Below are positions 402 through 29,411 of a DNA stretch of 64,000 nucleotides, piece by piece. Under the pieces are notes generated by a model that did no database searches, was not told where the DNA came from, and worked only from the letters and a program-made list of their open reading frames with translations. Each line of letters begins with the position of its first letter. Position 1 is the first letter of the stretch. The position numbers and the translations under genes were made by a program. The stretch spans positions 1-64,000 of the forward strand of contig JADZEM010000015.1 of NCBI GenBank assembly GCA_020850535.1, read 5' to 3'. This stretch comes from Chloroflexota bacterium (GTDB taxonomy: Bacteria > Chloroflexota > UBA6077 > JACCZL01).

Positions 402-803
402 ATGTCTCAGGAGATCCAGCCCGGGCTGATCGGCGAGGTCGCGCGAACCGTCACGCCCTCCGATCTCGCCAGCGCCGTTGGCTCAGGGCGGCTGGACGTG
501 TTCGGGACGCCGGCCATGCTGGCACTGGTCGAGCTCGCCGCCGTCAACGCCGTAGACCACCTGCTGCCCGACGGCTCGACGACGGTCGGCACGCGGCTGG
601 ACGTCCGGCACCTGTCACCGTCGCCGCTGGGCATCGAGGTCCGGGCGCGCGCCGAGTTGACGGCCGTCGAGGGCCGCAAGCTGAGCTTCCTGGTCGAAGC
701 GTTCGACGCGGTCGAGAAGATCGCCGAGGGCACCCACGAGCGGTTCATCGCCGATGGCGCGCGCCTGCTGGCCCGCGCCGAGGCCAAACTGCCGAAGACC
801 TAG
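402..803 (+). CDS. FlK-like thioesterase (hotdog fold)
   Basis: A 133-residue protein with the layout of the fluoroacetyl-CoA thioesterase-like family. The segment GTPAMLALVE (about residues 36-45) and the block TVGTRLDVRHLSPSPLG (about 62-78) fit the hotdog helix and first strands. The family hydrolyses small acyl-CoA thioesters in the cytoplasm; the actual substrate cannot be read from sequence, and fluoroacetate use is not implied. GGAGG lies six bases before the ATG and decides the start. It stands alone between a repeat region and a secreted-protein gene. Confidence 0.8.
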   Translation: MSQEIQPGLIGEVARTVTPSDLASAVGSGRLDVFGTPAMLALVELAAVNAVDHLLPDGSTTVGTRLDVRHLSPSPLGIEVRARAELTAVEGRKLSFLVEAFDAVEKIAEGTHERFIADGARLLARAEAKLPKT

Positions 804-1034
804 CAGGCACGGCATCGCGCTCAGTTGCCGCTCCGGCTCGAAACGTGTATCGGGCCGACGCAGTCACTATGCCCTCACACCAAACACACTGGAATGCAAC
901 GAAACTGCAAACATTTCTACACATTTCAGGGGCAGCCATCTCGGCTGCCTCATTCTGTCGTTATGGTCTGCGGGTCAACGATGACGGCCTGCGAAGTCCG
1001 GAATACAACCTTCACAGTGGAGAGTGATTCGAAC

Positions 1035-1379
1035 ATGCGTCGCCTGTTTTTCAGCCGCCTCGGCGGTGCGATGCTCGCGTTGGCGCTGGTCATCGGGAGC
1101 GTCTCGACGGCGTTTGCCGATCCGCGTGACTTTGTCCTGAACAATGCCACCGGCCGGGTTATCACCGAGGTCTACGTGACGCCGTCCAACCTGGACGACT
1201 GGGGCGAGGACATCCTCGGGCAGGACGTGCTCGAAGCCGGTCAGAGCGTGACCATCAAGTTCTCGCGCTTCAAGGAAGGCGACTGCTACTACGACGTCAA
1301 GGTGATCGTGGTGGACGGTGGCGAGGGTGAGCTGAATCAGGTCAACCTCTGCGAGACCCAGACCGTCACCTTCAACTGA
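1035..1379 (+). CDS. Small secreted protein of unknown function
   Basis: The 114-residue product begins with a clear signal peptide (MRRLFFSRLGG, then a hydrophobic stretch, probable cleavage after AFA near residue 29). The mature part is about 85 residues, beta-rich and acidic, with two cysteines (in DCYYD and NLCETQ) that could form a disulfide. An upstream in-frame extension exists, but the ATG at 1035 is chosen because it puts the signal peptide at the N-terminus and has GGAGAG upstream. I do not recognise a characterised family. A strong hairpin terminator follows. Confidence 0.75.
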   Translation: MRRLFFSRLGGAMLALALVIGSVSTAFADPRDFVLNNATGRVITEVYVTPSNLDDWGEDILGQDVLEAGQSVTIKFSRFKEGDCYYDVKVIVVDGGEGELNQVNLCETQTVTFN

Positions 1380-1412
1380 GGACGGCTGGCTCATCCACAG
1401 CGCAGACAACAG

Positions 1413-1450
1413 AAGCGAGGGCTGCCGCCATGGCAGTCCTCGCTTCTTTC
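1413..1450 (+). terminator. Rho-independent-type terminator
   Basis: AAGCGAGGGCTGCC and its near-perfect inverted copy GGCAGTCCTCGCTT form a 14-bp stem with one mismatch and a five-base loop, followed by a short pyrimidine run (CTTTC). It lies 33 bases after the secreted-protein gene and before the convergent VOC gene, so it could serve both strands. Confidence 0.7.
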
Positions 1451-1480
1451 CGGTCCGGGCTGCGCCGGTCAGGTCCGCCG

Positions 1481-1912
1481 TCAGACGGGTGGGCGCTCCA
1501 GCGGACGAGCGAAGCTGAGCTCGTGGCCATCCGGGTCCGTCAGGTGGAAGTAGCGCTCGCCCCAGGGCGCATCCGCCGGCGGGAACTGCGGTGAGAGACC
1601 GCCAGCAATGGCGCACTGGTACGCGGCGTCGACGTCCGAGACGTGGAAGATCACGCGCCCCCACCAGCCCAGCTCCCGCTCACGCGGGACCAGGATAATG
1701 TTCAGGTAGCTGCTCCCATGCGTCAGCTCGCCAGCCCGAAAACTCGTGAAGTCGGCGTCCTCGCCGCCGTAGTGAATCGGGAAGCCCAGCGCACGATAGA
1801 AGCGAACAGACCGCGCCATGTCGTGGGTTGCCAGGGTGATCGCGCTCACCGCCTCAAGCGCGAACGTCGGCCGGCCCGCCTTCCGACCCTCGACCTCCTG
1901 CGTGATAGCCAT
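1481..1912 (-). CDS. VOC family (glyoxalase/bleomycin-resistance-like) protein
   Basis: A 143-residue single-module vicinal-oxygen-chelate protein. The first beta-alpha unit is ITLATHDMARSVRFYRALGF (about residues 25-44) and the C-terminal unit ends in YFHLTDPDGHELSFARP, the usual PDG[HN]xLxF signature with a metal-ligand Glu. The family includes lyases, dioxygenases and drug-binding proteins, and the substrate cannot be predicted. It is transcribed toward the terminator at 1413-1450, alone. The 207-bp gap to the next gene contains nothing I recognise. Confidence 0.85.
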   Translation of the reverse strand: MAITQEVEGRKAGRPTFALEAVSAITLATHDMARSVRFYRALGFPIHYGGEDADFTSFRAGELTHGSSYLNIILVPRERELGWWGRVIFHVSDVDAAYQCAIAGGLSPQFPPADAPWGERYFHLTDPDGHELSFARPLERPPV

Positions 1913-2119
1913 AGCTCACATCCCTTCTGCCGCTGAGTTCAGGATACGGCCGAACACGCGCGCGCGTATACCAAAAAACGACGGATCTCTCCGTCGTGAT
2001 GCAGGCCGAGGCATCGAATCACACGAAGTCTGGCCCGGCGAGGCCGATCCCTCGACCCCGTACACGGATGAGGGGGCGGCGCCACCGGGCCGGTCTGTGC
2101 GAATCGGTGGGGACTGATC

Positions 2120-3316
2120 TCAGTCGAAGAACCCGGCATCCTCCGGCTTGAGGTACTGCCGCGCCTTCTCGGTATCGATCTCGATGCCCAGTCCTGGCCG
2201 ATCCCAGACGGTGATGTGGCCGTCTTGCACGATCGGGTCCGGGAGGCCCTTGACGATGTCGTACCACCAGGCCGGCTTGCCGTAGGGGTACTCGAACGCG
2301 ATGAAGTTGTGAGGCATGGCCGCCGAGACCTGCACGAGCGCCGCCAGCCCGATGACGCCGTCGAAGACGCCGTGCGGGGCCATCATGATGCCGTGGAGGT
2401 CGGCGTACTCCGCGATCCACTTCAGCTCGGCGATGCCGCCAACATCCTCCGGGTCCGGCCCCACGACGTTGATCGCCTGACGCTCAATCAAGTCCTTGAA
2501 GTTGTGGCGCAGGTAGATCTGCTCGCCGGTGTGGATCGGCGTGGTGGTGTTCCAGGTCACGTCGCGGTAGACCTCGGCGCTCACATACGGGGTGTAGTCC
2601 CCGGTGATCATGTCCTCGAGCCACATCAGGTTGTACGGCTCGACAGCCTTCGCGAACTTGAGGGCGTCCTTCGGGGAGAACCCGGGGCCGCAATCGAGCG
2701 CCAGTCCGATCTCATCGCCGGTCACGGCCTTCATCGCCTCGACGCACGCCACGAGGTGCTTCAGCCCCTTCTCGGTGAGAGCGCCACGGTCCAGCGCGCC
2801 GTGCAGCCCGGCCGGGCGTGGGTCGCCGTAGAAGAAGTCGGGCACGATGCGCTTCATCGGGCTGTGAAACCCGATGGGTTGCTTGATGATCGTGAAGCCC
2901 TCGGGCGCGGCCACCATTCCGCGGGTGACCTCGGCGTACTCCTCGGGGGTGTACGACTCCATCGGGAAACGCAGCCCGCCGTTGTAGATGCGGACGCGGT
3001 CCCGCACTTTGCCGCCGAGCAGTTTGTAGACGGGGACGCCGGCCGCCTTCCCGGCGATGTCCCACAGCGCGATCTCGATGGCACTGATGGCGCTGCCCCA
3101 CGGCTTGAACGCCCCGCGCTGGCGAATCTTGAGCATGACGCGCTCGACGTTGGTGGGGTCTTCGCCGAGGATCGCGTCCTTGAAGAAGAGGACGTTCGGG
3201 ACGATGTACGGCTTGGTGGACTCGATCTGGCCGTAGCCGTCGATACCCTCATCGGTGAGGATGCGGATGACCGGGTTCTCACCCAGCACCACGCATCGGA
3301 GATCGGTGATCTTCAT
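2120..3316 (-). CDS. Mandelate racemase/muconate lactonizing-type dehydratase (enolase superfamily)
   Basis: A 398-residue protein. The N-terminal capping domain starts MKITDLRCVVLG. The barrel carries the three metal-ligand segments in order: LALDCGPG, LMWLEDM and HTGEQIY, then MAPHGV with a candidate catalytic His. This fits the D-galactonate/D-mannonate dehydratase side of the superfamily, which dehydrates sugar acids. The reading frame continues 180 codons upstream, but that part lies over the divergent gene; the ATG at 3316 starts the conserved domain. The divergent sugar-isomerase-like neighbour supports a role in carbohydrate catabolism. Confidence 0.85.
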   Translation of the reverse strand: MKITDLRCVVLGENPVIRILTDEGIDGYGQIESTKPYIVPNVLFFKDAILGEDPTNVERVMLKIRQRGAFKPWGSAISAIEIALWDIAGKAAGVPVYKLLGGKVRDRVRIYNGGLRFPMESYTPEEYAEVTRGMVAAPEGFTIIKQPIGFHSPMKRIVPDFFYGDPRPAGLHGALDRGALTEKGLKHLVACVEAMKAVTGDEIGLALDCGPGFSPKDALKFAKAVEPYNLMWLEDMITGDYTPYVSAEVYRDVTWNTTTPIHTGEQIYLRHNFKDLIERQAINVVGPDPEDVGGIAELKWIAEYADLHGIMMAPHGVFDGVIGLAALVQVSAAMPHNFIAFEYPYGKPAWWYDIVKGLPDPIVQDGHITVWDRPGLGIEIDTEKARQYLKPEDAGFFD

Positions 3317-3464
3317 GCCAGCTCCCTCATTGGATCGCGCGGTCGATGCGGATGGTACCGCGCAGGGCGGTTTCCCGGGCGGCGCCCGTCCCGAGCGGCT
3401 GGACACCGCGGTCCCGGACGTGCGACCGTACCAGGCAGCCGGTGTGGGCAAGGGAGTGCGGGCC

Positions 3465-4292
3465 ATGCGACTGTCGCTGTCGGTGCGGATCGCCGAGCTG
3501 CAAGCACAGAAGGATCGCGCCTTCATGCCCCTGGCAGAGCTGGCGTCGCTGGCCCGCGAGGTCGGCTTCGAAGGCCTCTCGATGCGGGCCTCGGCGGTAT
3601 CCGTGGACTCGCCGCCCGAGCGCGTGCAGGAGGTCCGCGCGCTGCTCGACCGCCTCGGACTGGCCGTCTCGATGGTGACGGGCGACGTACCGCTGGCTGC
3701 CAATACCGGCGATGTGGCGCGTGTGCTGCGCGATCCGCTGCCGTACATCCGTCTCGCGCAGGCGCTGGGCTGCGACCTGATCCGCGTGATGGTCCGCACC
3801 GATGAGGAGGTCGAGTTGCTGAGGTCGGCCTGCGACACGGCTGCCGCCGAGGGCATCCGGATCGCCCATCAGACCCACTTCTTCACCCTGCTCGAAACGG
3901 TGGACGAGTGCCTGGACATCCTCCAGCGGGTGGACCGCCCGAACTTCGGCATCACGTTCGAGCCGGCCAACCTGCTGATCTGCGGCAGCGAGTACGGTCG
4001 GCGGGCCGTCGAGCGGCTGGCGCCGTACCTGTTCAACGCCTACTTTCAGAACATGCGCCTCGCGCCAGACGGGCCGGTCCGCTGGCGGCACCGCGACGGC
4101 GGCCCTGAGGTCCGCGCCGAGTACACGCCGGTCGGAGACCGCTCGGCCATCGACGTCGCGGAGATCGTCTCAGCCCTGCGTGAGGTGGGGTACGACGGCT
4201 GGTTCACGGTCCACCAGCCGTTGCAGCCGGGGCAGACCGTCGAGCAGGCGATCCGCGAGTCATACGCGGCAGTGGGGCCGCTGCTCGCCTGA
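3465..4292 (+). CDS. Sugar phosphate isomerase/epimerase-like TIM-barrel protein
   Basis: A 275-residue protein of the xylose-isomerase-like/AP-endonuclease-2 barrel family. Typical segments are the N-terminal MRLSLSVRIAELQ, the metal-site region IAHQTHFFTLLETVDECLDI and ITFEPANLLICG, and the C-terminal VGYDGWFTVHQP. Such proteins isomerise or epimerise keto-sugars, or act on inositol derivatives. The ATG at 3465 is chosen over upstream in-frame starts because GGGAG lies 7-11 bases before it and the upstream part has no domain. It is divergent from the dehydratase with a 148-bp shared control region. Confidence 0.8.
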   Translation: MRLSLSVRIAELQAQKDRAFMPLAELASLAREVGFEGLSMRASAVSVDSPPERVQEVRALLDRLGLAVSMVTGDVPLAANTGDVARVLRDPLPYIRLAQALGCDLIRVMVRTDEEVELLRSACDTAAAEGIRIAHQTHFFTLLETVDECLDILQRVDRPNFGITFEPANLLICGSEYGRRAVERLAPYLFNAYFQNMRLAPDGPVRWRHRDGGPEVRAEYTPVGDRSAIDVAEIVSALREVGYDGWFTVHQPLQPGQTVEQAIRESYAAVGPLLA

Positions 4293-4373
4293 GCGCCCGC
4301 TGCTCTCCCGAGCGCCGGCGCGCCCCCGCATCCAGCCGGGCACGCGCCGCCCACTCCCTGTTTGCGCCTGCCG

Positions 4374-6977
4374 TCAGGACAGGATCTCGACGTACCCCTC
4401 CGTGCCATGCACCCGGATCCGCTGTCCATCCCGGATCAGGCTGGTCGCCTGCTCGACGCCGACCACCGCCGGCAACCCGTACTCCCGCGCGATCACCGCC
4501 CCGTGGGTCATCAGGCCACCCACCTCGGTTACCAGGCCACCGATGGCAACGAAGAGCGGCGTCCAGCTCGGATCGGTGAAGGCGGTGACCAGAATGTCGC
4601 CCGGTTCCAGGTCGGCGCCTGCCATATCCAGGATCACGCGCGCCCGCCCCTCGACCATCCCCGCCGACACCGGCAGACCAGCCAGCGCACCGGCCGGCAG
4701 GTCGTCGCGGTGGTACGCCCCGGTCAGGGCTTCGCCGTCAGACGTCAGGACGCGCGGCGGCGTGAGCGACTGATAGGTGCGAAACTCATCCTTGCGCTGG
4801 CGGATCAGCCCCGGGTCGACCTGCTGCGTGCGCGCGCCATCATGCAACTCCTGAACAGTGAGAAAGAAGGCGTCTTCTCGCGTCCGCAACACGCCGACGG
4901 CCACCAGCCGGTCGGCTTCCGCCATCAACGCCTGCTTGTACACGGCGTAGCGGCAGACCATGCCGTACTTCGGAAACTCGCGGTAGCCAGCGAACGTCCG
5001 GAGCCGGTCGATCATCCGTTGGGTCTCGGCGGCCCTTTCCGCGCCATCTGGCAGGGCGCGGACGCGCTCCACCAGTTCGTGCGCCTTCTCAGCAGCTTCC
5101 TGCCGTCCCCGCTCGAAGCGCCGCATGCCCTCGCCCGGCCCGAAATTCCTGACGTTGCTGAGGATCATCGGGATGAGCGCGGACGGGCGCTCGCTCCAAC
5201 GCGGCCTCGTGATGTCGATCTCGCCGACACAGCGCATGCCGTACCGGTCGAGGAAGCCCCGGATCGCCGCCGCCTGACCGCTGGGCAGCCTGGACAGGTC
5301 GTCCAGAAAACCGTCGTCCTGGATCTGCTCCAGGAACGCCACCACGGCAGGCGACGTGCGAACCACATCCGCAACGTCGAGCAGCGCCAGCCCCATCTCG
5401 GACGTGACGTTGTCGGGCACGGACTGAGAAAGCGTGTGGGCAGCGTCCTTCTCGCCGAGCCACACGCGCAGGTGGTCGTTGAGCCACCAGGTCGCCTCGA
5501 CACTGGCCACGATCGCCTGATGGCTCTGTGGGTCGAACAGGAGTCGCTTCAGCTCCTGGAGATCGGCCAGGATGAAGTCGAACAGCGCCGGTCCCGATTT
5601 CGAACGAATCGCGTCCTTCAGCGCGGCCAGCGAATCGTGCATGCGCCCGACCAGACCGGCGACGATGGCCGGGTCGTTCGCGATGGGCGCTGGCGTGCCG
5701 CCTGCCGCCGGTCCGGCCGCCGGGGCCACGCCGGCTCCGTCGTCAGGAAGCGCTCGGAGCCTGTCGTCCCGAGCAATCACCGTTCGCAGGGCGTCCCCAA
5801 GCAGCGGATCTGACCGCCCAACAAGCTCCAGCAGCCCGGATTGCCCTGCCGGCGAGGACAGCTCAGCGGTCACGTCCACGAACAGCCGCCCGCCGGCCGT
5901 CAGCATCGGTCGCAAGGCCGTCAACTGCCACATCGACAGCCCCAGCTGGAGGATCGGGTCGGTCATCATCTGCTGGTGGCCGACCGAGATGTAAACGTGG
6001 TACTCGCCGTCCTCCGCTTCGGGGATCGGGAACAGCGTAGTGACCGGCCGGCTCTGGACGATCTGGAAGCTGCCGTCGTCCAGACACCACTCAATGTCCT
6101 GCGGGCGCCCGAACTGGGCCTCGATCCGCCGGCCAAGCTGCGCGAGCTGGACGATCTGCTCGTCGGTCAGGGCCGGCTGCTGCTGGCGCGCTGGCGCAAC
6201 CTCCTGCCGGATGGTGCCGCCACCCGGTGCAGCGCCGATCTCCAGGCGCTTGGCGGCCACCGTCCTGGCGACGATCTCGCCGTCACGCACCTTGTAGACG
6301 TCCGCGTTCACCAGTCCGGACACCAGGGCCTCGCCCAGGCCGAAGCTGGCCTCGATGGAGGCGACCTTCCGATTGCCGGTGATCGGATCGGCGGTGAACA
6401 GGATGCCCGCCGCCTGCGGAAAGACCATCCGCTGCACCACGACGGCCATCCGCGCCGTCCGATGGTCGATGCCGTTCCGCAGCCGGTAGGTCACCGCGCG
6501 CTCGGTGAACAGCGAGGCCCAGCAGCGGCTGACATGCTGAAGGATCGCTCGCGGCCCGACGACGTTGAGGTAAGTGTCCTGCTGGCCCGCGAAGGAGGCC
6601 GTCGGCAAGTCCTCCGCCGTCGCGCTGGAACGGACCGCGTAGGCCTCCTGCCCCCCAACGCGCGCGAGGCGGTCCGCGATCTCCGCCGCCACATCATCTG
6701 GCATGGCGACGCTTTCGATGGCCTGGCGAACTTCCCCGCTCAGCACCCGGATCGCCTCGCGGTCATCCGGCCAGAGGTCGGCGAGGCGGGCGATCTGCTG
6801 GTCAAGCGACGGCGCTTCGGCCATGATCCGCACAAAGGCGGCCGTCGTCACGCAGAAGGCGGGCGGCACGCGGACGCCATCGATGCGCGCAAGCTCGCCC
6901 AGGTGCGCGCCCTTTCCGCCCACGACGGCAAGCTGTGTTCGGTCGATCTCCTGAAGATCCAGCACGTAGCAGCGCAT
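4374..6977 (-). CDS. rph: Rifamycin phosphotransferase (RPH), rifamycin-inactivating
   Basis: The 867-residue length equals that of the characterised Listeria enzyme as I recall it. Domains in order are the ATP-grasp (GGKGAHLGELAR near residue 20; AVRSSATAEDLPTASFAGQQ near 120; QDIEWCLDDGSFQIVQSRP near 310), the helical antibiotic-binding region (about 330-750) and the swivelling phosphohistidine domain (GGLMTHGAVIAREYG). Counting back from the end puts the catalytic His at 825. The enzyme uses ATP to phosphorylate the ansa bridge of rifamycins, releasing AMP and phosphate. Plain PEP synthase is less likely because its C-terminal PEP barrel is absent. Start: ATG after GGGGAGGAGCGG. An upstream extension is rejected. 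Confidence 0.9.
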   Translation of the reverse strand: MRCYVLDLQEIDRTQLAVVGGKGAHLGELARIDGVRVPPAFCVTTAAFVRIMAEAPSLDQQIARLADLWPDDREAIRVLSGEVRQAIESVAMPDDVAAEIADRLARVGGQEAYAVRSSATAEDLPTASFAGQQDTYLNVVGPRAILQHVSRCWASLFTERAVTYRLRNGIDHRTARMAVVVQRMVFPQAAGILFTADPITGNRKVASIEASFGLGEALVSGLVNADVYKVRDGEIVARTVAAKRLEIGAAPGGGTIRQEVAPARQQQPALTDEQIVQLAQLGRRIEAQFGRPQDIEWCLDDGSFQIVQSRPVTTLFPIPEAEDGEYHVYISVGHQQMMTDPILQLGLSMWQLTALRPMLTAGGRLFVDVTAELSSPAGQSGLLELVGRSDPLLGDALRTVIARDDRLRALPDDGAGVAPAAGPAAGGTPAPIANDPAIVAGLVGRMHDSLAALKDAIRSKSGPALFDFILADLQELKRLLFDPQSHQAIVASVEATWWLNDHLRVWLGEKDAAHTLSQSVPDNVTSEMGLALLDVADVVRTSPAVVAFLEQIQDDGFLDDLSRLPSGQAAAIRGFLDRYGMRCVGEIDITRPRWSERPSALIPMILSNVRNFGPGEGMRRFERGRQEAAEKAHELVERVRALPDGAERAAETQRMIDRLRTFAGYREFPKYGMVCRYAVYKQALMAEADRLVAVGVLRTREDAFFLTVQELHDGARTQQVDPGLIRQRKDEFRTYQSLTPPRVLTSDGEALTGAYHRDDLPAGALAGLPVSAGMVEGRARVILDMAGADLEPGDILVTAFTDPSWTPLFVAIGGLVTEVGGLMTHGAVIAREYGLPAVVGVEQATSLIRDGQRIRVHGTEGYVEILS

Positions 6978-7273: not shown

Positions 7274-7380
7274 CAGGGCAATTGCATGACAAGCACGTCC
7301 TGCGACCCCGGCGGGGACTTCAGTCCCTGACCGCCCGATGCACCGTCTTCGGGAACACCAGAGATCATGCAATCGCCCTG
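7274..7380. mobile_element. MITE-like element, copy B
   Basis: The 107-bp element has terminal inverted repeats CAGGGCAATTGCATG (7274-7288) and CATGCAATCGCCCTG (7366-7380), 14 of 15 matching. The core GGGGACTTCAGTCCC is shared with copies A and C. It lies between the divergent rph and SMP-30 genes. I see no target duplication at this copy. Confidence 0.8.
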
Positions 7381-25759: not shown

Positions 25760-25837
25760 GAGCGTGCGCTGCCCGAGTGTGAGCGACTTCCTCGCGGGCA
25801 TGACACAACCGTGATGTTGTGCCGTGGGGAGGCCGTG

Positions 25838-27157
25838 GTGTCGGGCAGCGAGAATCAACGGCAGGCTACACTCAGCCTGATCGTGCCCGCGGTCATGCTG
25901 GCGGTGGTGAGCGGCTTGCTGCTCCTCGGCCTGCTGGCCGGCCCTGACCCAGTATCCGCGGCGCCCCGCGTCGAGCAGATCGCTGCCGCCGAGAGCGAGC
26001 AAGCGGACGTCGACGACGACGAGCTTGTCGCGCCCGTCGCGCTGCCGCCGACCGAAGCGCCGGTCGTCTCAGTCCCGGTTGCGGCCGCCGTTCGGACGCC
26101 AGCGCCGGCGACGCCAGCGACTCCGCCCCCCACGCCCACGCCGACCTGGAGCGGCCCGCCCACGTTCACGTTTGTCGCGCTGGGGGTCGATCAGCGAAAC
26201 GACCGCGAGATCCCCCGCACCGACACCATCATGATCGGGCGAGTGGACCTGCGTGGCCCGTATGTGACGGTCGTCTCGGTCCCGCGCGATCTGCTGGTAG
26301 ACATCCCGGGCTACGGCAAGGACCGCATCAACGCCGCCTACGTCTACGGCGAGCAGTTCAAGGAGCCGGGCGGCGGCATCGGGCTGCTGCAGCGCACGAT
26401 CCAGAAGAGCTTCGGCATCCAGATCGACCACTTCGGGATTGTGGACTTCCAGTGCTTCCGCACGGCCGTCGATTCGGTCGGCGGGGTCACGGTGAACGTG
26501 CCCCGCGCCATCGTCGATCCGAAGTACCCGACCGAGGACTACGGCACCAAGATCGTCAAGTTCGATCCCGGTATCCAGGTGATGGACGGCGAGCGCGCCC
26601 TGGAGTACGCCCGCACGCGCTACGCCGACAACGATTTCCAGCGCATGCAGCGCCAGCAGTCGATCATCTCCGCCATGCGCGAGCAGATGCTCCAGGTGCG
26701 CTCGCTGCCGGCCATCCCGACGCTGCTCACCGGCTGCCGCAACATGCGGAGCGATCTCGGCTGGCGCGAGTACCTGAACCTCGCCACCAGCCTCCGCAGC
26801 CTGGACAGCAAGAGCGTCTCGTTTTCCGCCATCAACGAGACGATGGTCGTGGATTCGGTGCTGCCGAACGGCGCGGCGGTCCTGCTGCCCCGCTGGGAGG
26901 TCATCCGCCCGATGATCGGCGAGCGATTCGGGACCGTGAGCGGACCAGCCCGCCCCACTGCTCCGAACGGCAGTACCGTTCGGCCCGGCGCGTCGCCCCA
27001 GCCGAATGCCTCACCGACGCCGTTCACCTCGCCGGCCCCGTTCGCCTCGCCACTCCCGGCCGCGACGCCCCAGGCCGGCTCGGTGGCGGACAGCCCGAAG
27101 GACATCCTCCCAGGCGACGCGCTGACGCCGGCCGTTCCCAACGCCCGACGCACCTGA
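25838..27157 (+). CDS. LytR-CpsA-Psr (LCP) family protein
   Basis: A 439-residue protein. It has a membrane anchor (about 12-36), a low-complexity stretch, and the LCP catalytic domain (about 105-300) with REIPRTDTIMIGRVD, VVSVPRDLLVDIPGYGKDRI, DSVGGVTVNVP and the Arg-rich ALEYARTRYADNDFQRMQRQ that contacts the polyprenyl pyrophosphate. LCP enzymes transfer polymers from lipid carriers to peptidoglycan. About 80 residues of Pro/Ser/Thr-rich tail follow. The GTG at 25838 is preferred because GGGGAGG is five bases upstream; in-frame GTG/ATG codons at 25811 and 25814 are alternatives. Confidence 0.85.
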   Translation: MSGSENQRQATLSLIVPAVMLAVVSGLLLLGLLAGPDPVSAAPRVEQIAAAESEQADVDDDELVAPVALPPTEAPVVSVPVAAAVRTPAPATPATPPPTPTPTWSGPPTFTFVALGVDQRNDREIPRTDTIMIGRVDLRGPYVTVVSVPRDLLVDIPGYGKDRINAAYVYGEQFKEPGGGIGLLQRTIQKSFGIQIDHFGIVDFQCFRTAVDSVGGVTVNVPRAIVDPKYPTEDYGTKIVKFDPGIQVMDGERALEYARTRYADNDFQRMQRQQSIISAMREQMLQVRSLPAIPTLLTGCRNMRSDLGWREYLNLATSLRSLDSKSVSFSAINETMVVDSVLPNGAAVLLPRWEVIRPMIGERFGTVSGPARPTAPNGSTVRPGASPQPNASPTPFTSPAPFASPLPAATPQAGSVADSPKDILPGDALTPAVPNARRT

Positions 27158-27179
27158 CGCCGCCGGCTGGCTCTGACAG

Positions 27180-27287
27180 CAGGGCAATCGCATGTGCGCT
27201 GGTGTTCCCAACCTACCATCCAACGAGTGGTCGGGGACTGAAGTCCCCGACGAGGCCGCACGGCGTGCTCATCATGCAATCGCCCTG
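27180..27287. mobile_element. MITE-like element, copy C, with 10-bp target duplication
   Basis: The 108-bp element has ends CAGGGCAATCGCATG (27180-27194) and CATGCAATCGCCCTG (27273-27287), with the core GGGGACTGAAGTCCCC. It is flanked by a direct repeat GCTCTGACAG at 27170-27179 and 27288-27297, as expected after a transposition event. It lies 22 bases after the LCP stop codon. No transposase is present in the window. Confidence 0.85.
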
Positions 27288-27422
27288 GCTCTGACAGACT
27301 CCGGCTGGCCCCGGACGGTGCTGCCGACCACAATATCCCGGGCGAGCCTCGCGACACGCGCGAGCAGGCGCATCGGCGGCTGGCCGGCCACGACCAGCGC
27401 CACTCTGCCCCCGGGAGCGCCG

Positions 27423-29411
27423 ATGTCTACCAGCCAGCGACGACCGATCTCCGCCGAAGACCTTGCCGCGCTCGTGCTCATCGACAGCCCACGCCTGTCA
27501 CCGGATGGCACGATCGTCACGTTCACCCGCACGACGACCGAGCTTGCCGAGCGCTGCTACCGCTCGGCCATCTGGAGCGTGCCGTACGACGGCGGCGAGC
27601 CGCGCCAACTGACCAGCGGCACCAGCCGCGAGCGCTCGGCGCGCTGGTCGCCAGACGGCCGCTGGCTCGCGTTCATCGCGGACCGCGACGGCGAGAAGGG
27701 CCAGCTCTACGTGCTGCCGACCGGCGGCGGCGAGGCCCGCGCCGTCACCAGCAAGCTCGCCGGCATCGGTGGCGTGGCCTGGAGTCCGGACAGCGCTCGG
27801 CTGGCGTTCACGGCGCGGGTGCGGCCGGCGGATCAGCCGTCGATCCTGAACAGCCCCGACACGCCCGTCTTCCGCGAGATCCGCCGCATCAAACACCGCT
27901 CGGACGGGACCGGCCTGCTCGACGGTCGGGCGCACCTGTTCGTGGTCGAACGCGATGGCGTGGCCGGGAGCGACGGCGCAGCGGCTTCCCAGATCACGGA
28001 TGGCGACTGGGATGACAGCACGCCAGCCTGGTCGCCGGACGGCCGGAGCATCGCGTTCGCGTCGAACCGCTCCCCCGATCGCGATTGGAACGACGTGTCT
28101 GACATCTACGTCGTACCGGCCGCTGGCGGCGAGGCCCGGCTGCTGACGGACGGCGGCCATGCGTTGAGCGCGCCAGCCTTCTCGCCAGACGGTCAGACCG
28201 TCGCCTGCCTGGGTCGGACGCTCGACGCGCCGGCCGGCGCAAATGTCGACCTTTGGACCGTCCCGGCGGCGGGCGGCGCACCGCGCTGTCTCACGGCCGG
28301 CCTCGACATCTCCATCGGCAGCGACGTGCTGTCAGATGTGCGCGGCGGGCACCTCGTGCTGGCCCCGATCTGGACGCCGGACAGTCAGCATCTGCGGTTC
28401 CTGGTCTCGGAGCGTGGCAACGTCACCCTGCAAGAGATCGGCGTGGACGGCGGCTCGCTCCGGCAGATCGCCGGCGGCGACCGTGTGCTGCTCGACGCGG
28501 ATGGCGACGGCGAGCGGATCGTCTTCGCCGCCAGCACGCCGACGAACCCGGGCGATCTCTACACGATCTCCGCAGACGGCAGCGCCGAGCGGCAGATCAC
28601 CAGTCTGAATGACGACCTGCTGGCCTCACTGGCACTGTCGGAGCCGGAGCACCTGGAGTTCACTGGCGCGGACGGGCAGGCTGTTGAAGGGTGGTTCCTG
28701 CCCGGGCGCGGCGAAGGCCGGCGCCCGCTCGTGCTGGAGATCCACGGCGGGCCACACTCGCTCTACGGCAACGCCTTCTTCCACGAGTTCCAGTTGCTCG
28801 CTGCCGAGGGCTACCACGTCCTCTACACCAACCCACGCGGCAGCAAGGGGTACGGCGAGACGTTCTGCTCGGAGATCGCCGGAGCCTGGGGCGACCTCGA
28901 CTATCGAGACCTGATGGCGGCGGTTGACCTGATCGTGCAGCGGCCGGATGTGGATGCATCGCGGCTCGGCGTGGCTGGCGGCAGCTACGGCGGCTACATG
29001 ACGAACTGGATCATCGGACACACCGACCGCTTCAAGGCCGCCGTGACGATGCGCTGCCTCTCCAACTTCGTGTCGTTCTACGGCACCAGCGACATCGGAC
29101 CGTGGTTCGGCGAGCGCGAACTTGAGGGGTCGCCACGCGATCGACTGATGCGCTACTGGGACCGCTCGCCGTTGGCGCACGTCGAGCAAGTGACCACGCC
29201 CGTGCTCATCCTGCACGGGGAACAGGATCTGCGCTGTCCCATCGAGCAGGCCGAGCAGTGGTTTGTCTCGCTGCGGCGGCTCGGCAAGACGGCCGAGTTC
29301 GTGCGCTTCCCCGACGAGAGCCACGACATGTCGCGGAGCGGTCGGCCGGACCGCCGTCAGGTGCGGCTGCAGCGGATCGTGGGCTGGTTCAAGGAGTATC
29401 TTGGGTCGTAG
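27423..29411 (+). CDS. S9 family prolyl oligopeptidase-type peptidase
   Basis: A 662-residue protein. The N-terminal half is a seven-bladed WD40-like propeller with repeated WSPDGRWLAF-type units. The C-terminal alpha/beta hydrolase (about 410-660) has nucleophile Ser in GVAGGSYGGYMTNW, Asp in LILHGEQDLRCPIEQ and His in FPDESHDMSRSG. It fits acylaminoacyl-peptidase/dipeptidyl peptidase enzymes acting on short peptides. The start is the ATG at 27423 (MSTSQRRPISAEDL). Its last two sense codons and stop are supplied by the first unit of a heptamer repeat array. Confidence 0.85.
   Translation: MSTSQRRPISAEDLAALVLIDSPRLSPDGTIVTFTRTTTELAERCYRSAIWSVPYDGGEPRQLTSGTSRERSARWSPDGRWLAFIADRDGEKGQLYVLPTGGGEARAVTSKLAGIGGVAWSPDSARLAFTARVRPADQPSILNSPDTPVFREIRRIKHRSDGTGLLDGRAHLFVVERDGVAGSDGAAASQITDGDWDDSTPAWSPDGRSIAFASNRSPDRDWNDVSDIYVVPAAGGEARLLTDGGHALSAPAFSPDGQTVACLGRTLDAPAGANVDLWTVPAAGGAPRCLTAGLDISIGSDVLSDVRGGHLVLAPIWTPDSQHLRFLVSERGNVTLQEIGVDGGSLRQIAGGDRVLLDADGDGERIVFAASTPTNPGDLYTISADGSAERQITSLNDDLLASLALSEPEHLEFTGADGQAVEGWFLPGRGEGRRPLVLEIHGGPHSLYGNAFFHEFQLLAAEGYHVLYTNPRGSKGYGETFCSEIAGAWGDLDYRDLMAAVDLIVQRPDVDASRLGVAGGSYGGYMTNWIIGHTDRFKAAVTMRCLSNFVSFYGTSDIGPWFGERELEGSPRDRLMRYWDRSPLAHVEQVTTPVLILHGEQDLRCPIEQAEQWFVSLRRLGKTAEFVRFPDESHDMSRSGRPDRRQVRLQRIVGWFKEYLGS

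Follow-up and report, generated by a model that had tools for sequence, protein, structure and literature searches.

Bacterial MITEs such as Correia, ERIC, Chunjie, and BrickBuilt are short, non-coding sequences that are bounded by terminal inverted repeats (TIRs), flanked by duplications, and present in high copy number, with ERIC reaching up to 711 copies in Photorhabdus (PMC10969869). The MITEs of P. gingivalis have been linked to IS5-family ends (PMC4596501). REP and BIME sequences are extragenic palindromes that also occur in high copy number and in regular arrays, and BIME units alternate in orientation (PMC2817692). The repeat family described here has the listed properties of the bacterial MITEs, and shares with REP and BIME the extragenic palindromes, the copy number, and the arrays. 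It differs from those MITEs in its partner, which here appears to be ISAs1, and from BIMEs in its tandems, which run head-to-tail. REP and BIME sequences are not known to have long TIRs with 10-bp duplications.

The ISAs1 family (NF033564; PF13808 and PF01609) resembles the repeat in its ends, which begin with CAGGG and carry GCAT at positions 11–14, and in its 10-bp duplications. New ISAs1 insertions in Frankia also have ends that begin with CAGGG and 10-bp direct repeats (PMC11946415). Unlike ISAs1 elements, the repeat has no transposase gene, measures 104–219 bp compared to about 1.2 kb, and is present in hundreds of copies. A 77-bp inverted repeat before the capsule operon of P. gingivalis has arm oligonucleotides that start with CAGGGCAATCGCATT, which agrees with the end of the family over 14 bases, and in contrast to the family here it is described as a stem bound by an HU protein (PMC3969353). 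This 77-bp repeat may be an ISAs1-type miniature element. The term ISAs1 is absent from the main text of the MITE review (PMC10969869), and the excerpted portions of PMC3606827, PMC5771137, and PMC11578231 describe no ISAs1 MITE. The open-licence literature yielded no description of such an element, an absence that is weak evidence.

The element between the LCP and S9 peptidase genes

The window is a stretch of 64,000 nucleotides from the start of contig JADZEM010000015.1 of a Chloroflexota bacterium (assembly GCA_020850535.1). On its plus strand, an ORF at 25811–27157 encodes a LytR_cpsA_psr (LCP) domain (PF03816, 1.8e-38) and ends with the stop codon at 27155–27157. The element starts at 27180, and the insertion therefore lies 22 bases past this stop, as the initial annotation had placed it. 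That annotation had also described a 10-bp repeat flanking a 108-bp element exactly on both sides, and the repeat is indeed perfect: the two copies of the target-site duplication (TSD) GCTCTGACAG occupy 27170–27179 and 27288–27297, with exactly 108 bp (27180–27287) between them. The 5' end of the element is CAGGGCAATCGCATG, the left TIR on the plus strand (27180–27194), and the 3' end is CATGCAATCGCCCTG, the right TIR (27273–27287), which reads CAGGGCGATTGCATG on the minus strand; the two ends are complementary at 13 of 15 positions. The central region comprises a perfect hairpin (10+2+10), GTCGGGGACT-GA-AGTCCCCGAC, at 27230–27251. A 13-bp direct repeat, CTGGCTCTGACAG, is also present at 27167–27179 and 27285–27297, and its second CTG constitutes the last three bases of the element itself.

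The window has a second short copy of the family, 107 bp long (7274–7380), with flanks that match at 5 of 10 positions and no TSD. A tandem is present at the start of the contig (58–327) and consists of a partial copy to position 100, the 10-bp linker GTAGCAGCAT at 101–110, and a 217-bp copy at 111–327.

The mechanically called ORF of the downstream S9 peptidase (27192–29411) begins at an ATG within the left end of the element (GCATG), and start codons are thus offered by the element ends. A start of this gene at 27423 is likelier than one at 27192. The nearest genome with a relative of the peptidase, at 61% identity, is G001, from another genus in the same family. The LCP protein has no significant match to the ORF upstream of that relative (best E 2.0); this ORF is not the LCP gene, and G001 therefore shares no locus with the window. 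Among the 40 relatives searched, none is a same-genus genome, no empty site was found, and the element itself had one marginal match (E 9.6e-4).

Copy number, duplication length, and internal anatomy

With up to two mismatches allowed, the end CAGGGCRATYGCATG has 472 and 479 matches on the two strands of the own genome (7.65 Mb), compared to 15 and 14 for a control consisting of the same pattern read backwards. The duplications were surveyed in 99 unique elements, forming 83 units, from the fetched loci, which cover part of the genome. Three units without a flank were excluded, and the remaining 80 include one false, overlapping pairing (L027, 1928–2138). A flanking repeat of exactly 10 bp is exact in 26 of the 80 units, matches at 9/10 in ten more, and at 8/10 in four, and shuffled flank pairings gave a mean of 0.435 exact 10-bp repeats. 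Adjacent exact repeats with a full length of 6–9 or 11–14 bp were absent from the 80 units. Flanks matching below 9/10 are found in 44 units, and 17 of the 80 adjoin the linker of a tandem and may have been truncated where a contig ends. When these 17 linker-flanked units and the false pairing are set aside, a cut that was chosen after seeing the data, the 26 exact and ten 9/10 matches are out of 62. The original observation came from a single locus, and many assembly breaks lie at these repeats, both of which would suit a flanking repeat produced by chance or as a segmental artefact; with exact repeats at so many different sites and at no other length from 6 to 14 bp, such an origin is barely conceivable.

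Across 162 ends, conservation is at most 0.31 bits outside the element and increases abruptly from the first C of CAGGG inwards. Of the 15 end positions, 13 have 1.5–1.95 bits, and the two variable ones have 0.99 and 1.20 bits. Since exact repeats occur only at length 10 and the boundary at CAGGG is sharp, the duplication measures 10 bp and not 13 bp. The longer alternative offered by the initial annotation, which counted the shared CTG, is ruled out, because the family-wide boundary assigns the CTG to the element. The length of 10 bp that it had preferred was confirmed, as was its view of a MITE copy with evidence of movement, by the hundreds of further copies and the 10-bp duplications at other sites. 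The family is short, with 15-bp TIRs, a TSD of constant length, and many dispersed copies, which are the features of a MITE.

Most of the 99 elements fall into three length classes, 217–218 bp (64 elements), 203–204 bp (12), and 107–109 bp (15), and the remaining 8 have other lengths; the entire family range is too short for a transposase gene. The 217-bp form has one long (L) and one short (R) arm, and in the 203-bp form both arms are short. Compared to the best-aligned 217-bp copy, a single block of 109–110 bp is missing from 13 of the 16 short copies (104–109 bp), nine of which lack the block alone and four of which have one more small gap. The window element is thus the shortened version of a larger MITE. 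The identity between short and long forms reaches 106/108, and is 89/108 for the window copy at 27180. Judged by these alignments, the 108-bp copies derive from the commoner 217-bp form by an internal deletion, which would have removed about 109 bp between two hairpins. The median pairwise identity among 66 copies of 216–219 bp is 0.86 (range 0.68–0.98), and a large part of the amplification is therefore not of recent date.

Perfect hairpin cores account for 159 of 172, although the picking pattern already demands the outer CGGGG/CCCCG and only the inner bases test the palindrome. Three main palindromic types, GGGGACTGAAGTCCCC, GGGGCTTGAAAGCCCC, and GGGGGTTGAAACCCCC, in either orientation, make up these 159. 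A strong central palindrome in high copy number is also what a REP/BIME-like palindrome spread by RAYT (HUH), or a functional hairpin amplified by recombination, would present. However, the family has TIRs and 10-bp target duplications, which RAYT movement is not known to produce. Moreover, the Rfam search returned no match at the locus, and a scan of the locus for promoters and terminators found neither, nor any terminator-like site. An origin through RAYT or hairpin amplification is thus very improbable.

ISAs1 elements with the same ends

The partner transposase can be placed in the ISAs1 family with good confidence. The initial annotation had proposed to search for a transposon that combines these ends with a transposase, and G001 has one, a 1256-bp ISAs1 element carrying CAGGGCGATTGCATG exactly at both ends. 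Its transposase matches NF033564 at 8.3e-117, with 389.9 bits against a cut-off of 70. The exact end CAGGGCRATYGCATG occurs only twice in the 5-Mb genome of G001, both times as an end of the ISAs1 element. The reading frame of this element seems to shift near the C-terminus, and no TSD was found at it (L055).

In the own genome, a PF13808 profile search found two loci above the cut-off, on contigs C136 and C187. The C136 copy matches NF033564 (ISAs1) with 258 bits over 229 residues (cut-off 70), and its outer ends, CAGGGGGATTGCATA and CAGGGCGATTGCATC, match the MITE end at 13/15 and 14/15, respectively; it has no TSD. This copy is broken, with its parts out of frame and the last part about 5.5 kb away. 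The DNA within it comprises a group II intron (RF00029) and further ORFs; in the interval C136:20600–28200 (L181), the stretch in question is 744–5158, with RF00029 at 744–843. One of the ORFs is presumably reverse-transcriptase-like, and two others in the same insert are taken by us to be a serine recombinase-like ORF and its tail. The C187 copy is cut off, has a left end, CAGGGCGATTGTATA, that matches at 13/15, and scores 65.6 bits with NF033564, below the cut-off of 70.

Both copies are thus broken or incomplete, and the own assembly has no intact ISAs1 transposase. With only dead copies in the assembly, the family has probably lost its mobility, or it is moved by a copy that is missing from the assembly. 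The state of these copies lowers the case that the family is active now, and not the case that it was moved by ISAs1.

ISAs1 elements at other loci display the same type of duplication. The L056 element has the exact 10-bp duplication TGAAAGCGTC, and the L163 element has the exact 10-bp duplication GTCGTCCGAG with the ends CAGGGCAATCGCATC and TAGGGCGATCGCATC, while the duplication at L057 is 9 bp. In G052, a MITE with CAGGGCAATCGCATG shares the genome with an ISAs1 element that has CAGGGCAATCGCATC and is flanked by an exact 10-bp TSD. No homology between MITE and ISAs1 elements was established inward of the terminal 15–18 bp.

IS4/IS231-like enzymes also produce duplications of about 10 bp. 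Another DDE family of this kind could have moved the MITE, with the match to ISAs1 ends arising by convergence. The own assembly, lacking an intact ISAs1 enzyme, leaves room for this, as does the scope of the comparison of transposase ends, which drew on the first 100 of the 951 end sites. Against it stand the restriction of the exact 15-mer in G001 to the two ISAs1 element ends, the 13/15 and 14/15 ends of the own ISAs1 remnants, and the combination of both kinds of element in G052. Convergence with another DDE family is accordingly improbable, though less remote than an origin through RAYT.

We consider it about 90% probable that the feature is a non-autonomous MITE with the recognition ends CAGGGCRATYGCATG of an ISAs1 DDE transposase, which moved it in trans with a 10-bp stagger. 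Directly observed are the ends and their match to ISAs1 elements, the duplications, and the copy number, and from these we infer the course of mobilisation. An ISAs1-family transposase acting in trans would cut the target with a stagger of 10 bases and join the element to it, and the gap repair after joining would generate the 10-bp duplication GCTCTGACAG. Hundreds of repeats in the genome are thereby attributed to a named transposase of which the assembly has no working copy.

Tandem units and shared ends across phyla

The 83 units include 14 dimers and one trimer. Among 37 outward-facing end pairs within 75 bp of each other, 35 are spaced by 10 bp and two by 17 bp. In each of the 14 dimers, a head-to-tail alignment of the two members is better than an inverted one. 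In the 13 dimers with both flanks, the outer 10-bp duplication is exact in eight and matches at 9/10 in one, and the outer flank differs from the inner linker in every case. Several linkers recur at different sites, namely ATGCTGCTAC or its complement four times, AGGGCAGCGC three times, and GTTCGTGACT twice, and by reading of the linker list there are perhaps six related groups. So few groups point to a small number of independent founding events. The uniform orientation and the spacing speak against tandems formed by random adjacent insertions, with the proviso that the independent events are few, and an assembly error as the source of dimers with matching outer duplications is unlikely.

The simplest account of the 10-bp linker is that it preserves a former target site as a fossil. 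A copy may have been duplicated along with its target duplication by slippage, by unequal exchange, or through a joined-end transposition intermediate, and the resulting dimer would then have moved as one unit, keeping the old target site as the linker. The distinct outer duplications suggest that whole tandems transposed as units with their own 10-bp duplications. The route of ISAs1 transposition becomes testable through these tandems and their constant 10-bp linker.

The ends were also searched for in other genomes. End pairs 95–125 bp apart were found in none of the 28 class members besides the own genome, plasmid sequences had no match to the element, and viral contigs had none for either element size. 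A cross-genome scan of one genome per species, with a pattern of two exact ends 170–190 bp apart, returned 26 stretches, all in MAGs; their length range reflects this pattern and not the true lengths of such elements. The hosts belong to Acidobacteria, Accumulibacter, Zoogloeaceae, Propionivibrio, Oxalobacteraceae, Burkholderiaceae, another Betaproteobacterium, Planctomycetota, and Armatimonadaceae. The 10-bp duplication is exact in 14 of these stretches, matches at 9/10 in four and at 8/10 in one, and is absent by that measure from seven, one of which (L141) has a 9-bp repeat. Their interiors fall into 12 mutually unmatched groups, none of them like the window element. The folding energy is more than 3 sd below that of shuffled sequences in 15 of the 26 interiors and not in the other 11; a strong hairpin is thus common and not universal. 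We take several of these interiors (L130–L155), for example GTCATTCCGGCGAAAGCCGGAATC in L131 and CTCTGTGTCTCTGTGTTGAG in L149, to resemble common environmental repeats. An ISAs1-transposase match (E <= 1e-10) is present in seven of the 12 host genomes searched and absent in five. The 15-bp end combined with the 10-bp duplication provides a search handle that connects otherwise unrelated repeats across phyla.

A wider reading is that ISAs1 sustains an unrecognised, cross-phylum class of MITEs defined only by the end CAGGGCRATYGCATG and a 10-bp duplication and having freely exchanged, often strongly hairpinned interiors, to which the lineage of the window adds head-to-tail tandems that have a 10-bp fossil linker and transpose as one. 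We hold this reading tentatively and put it slightly below even odds. If this is so, the way in which ISAs1 transposes, for example via joined-end or dimer intermediates, would have left a direct trace in the unvarying length of the linker. To a specialist, the novelty would lie in the tandem units and in the sharing of ends across phyla.

The joined flanks of insertions contain long spanning frames in several cases, and no gene interrupted at an insertion junction was recognised among them; long frames arise by chance in the GC-rich DNA of the own genome. Contigs C25, C55, C78, C152, C189, C190, and others have a terminus about 200 bp or less from a family copy. With many contig ends within or near such copies, the family repeats probably break the assembly.
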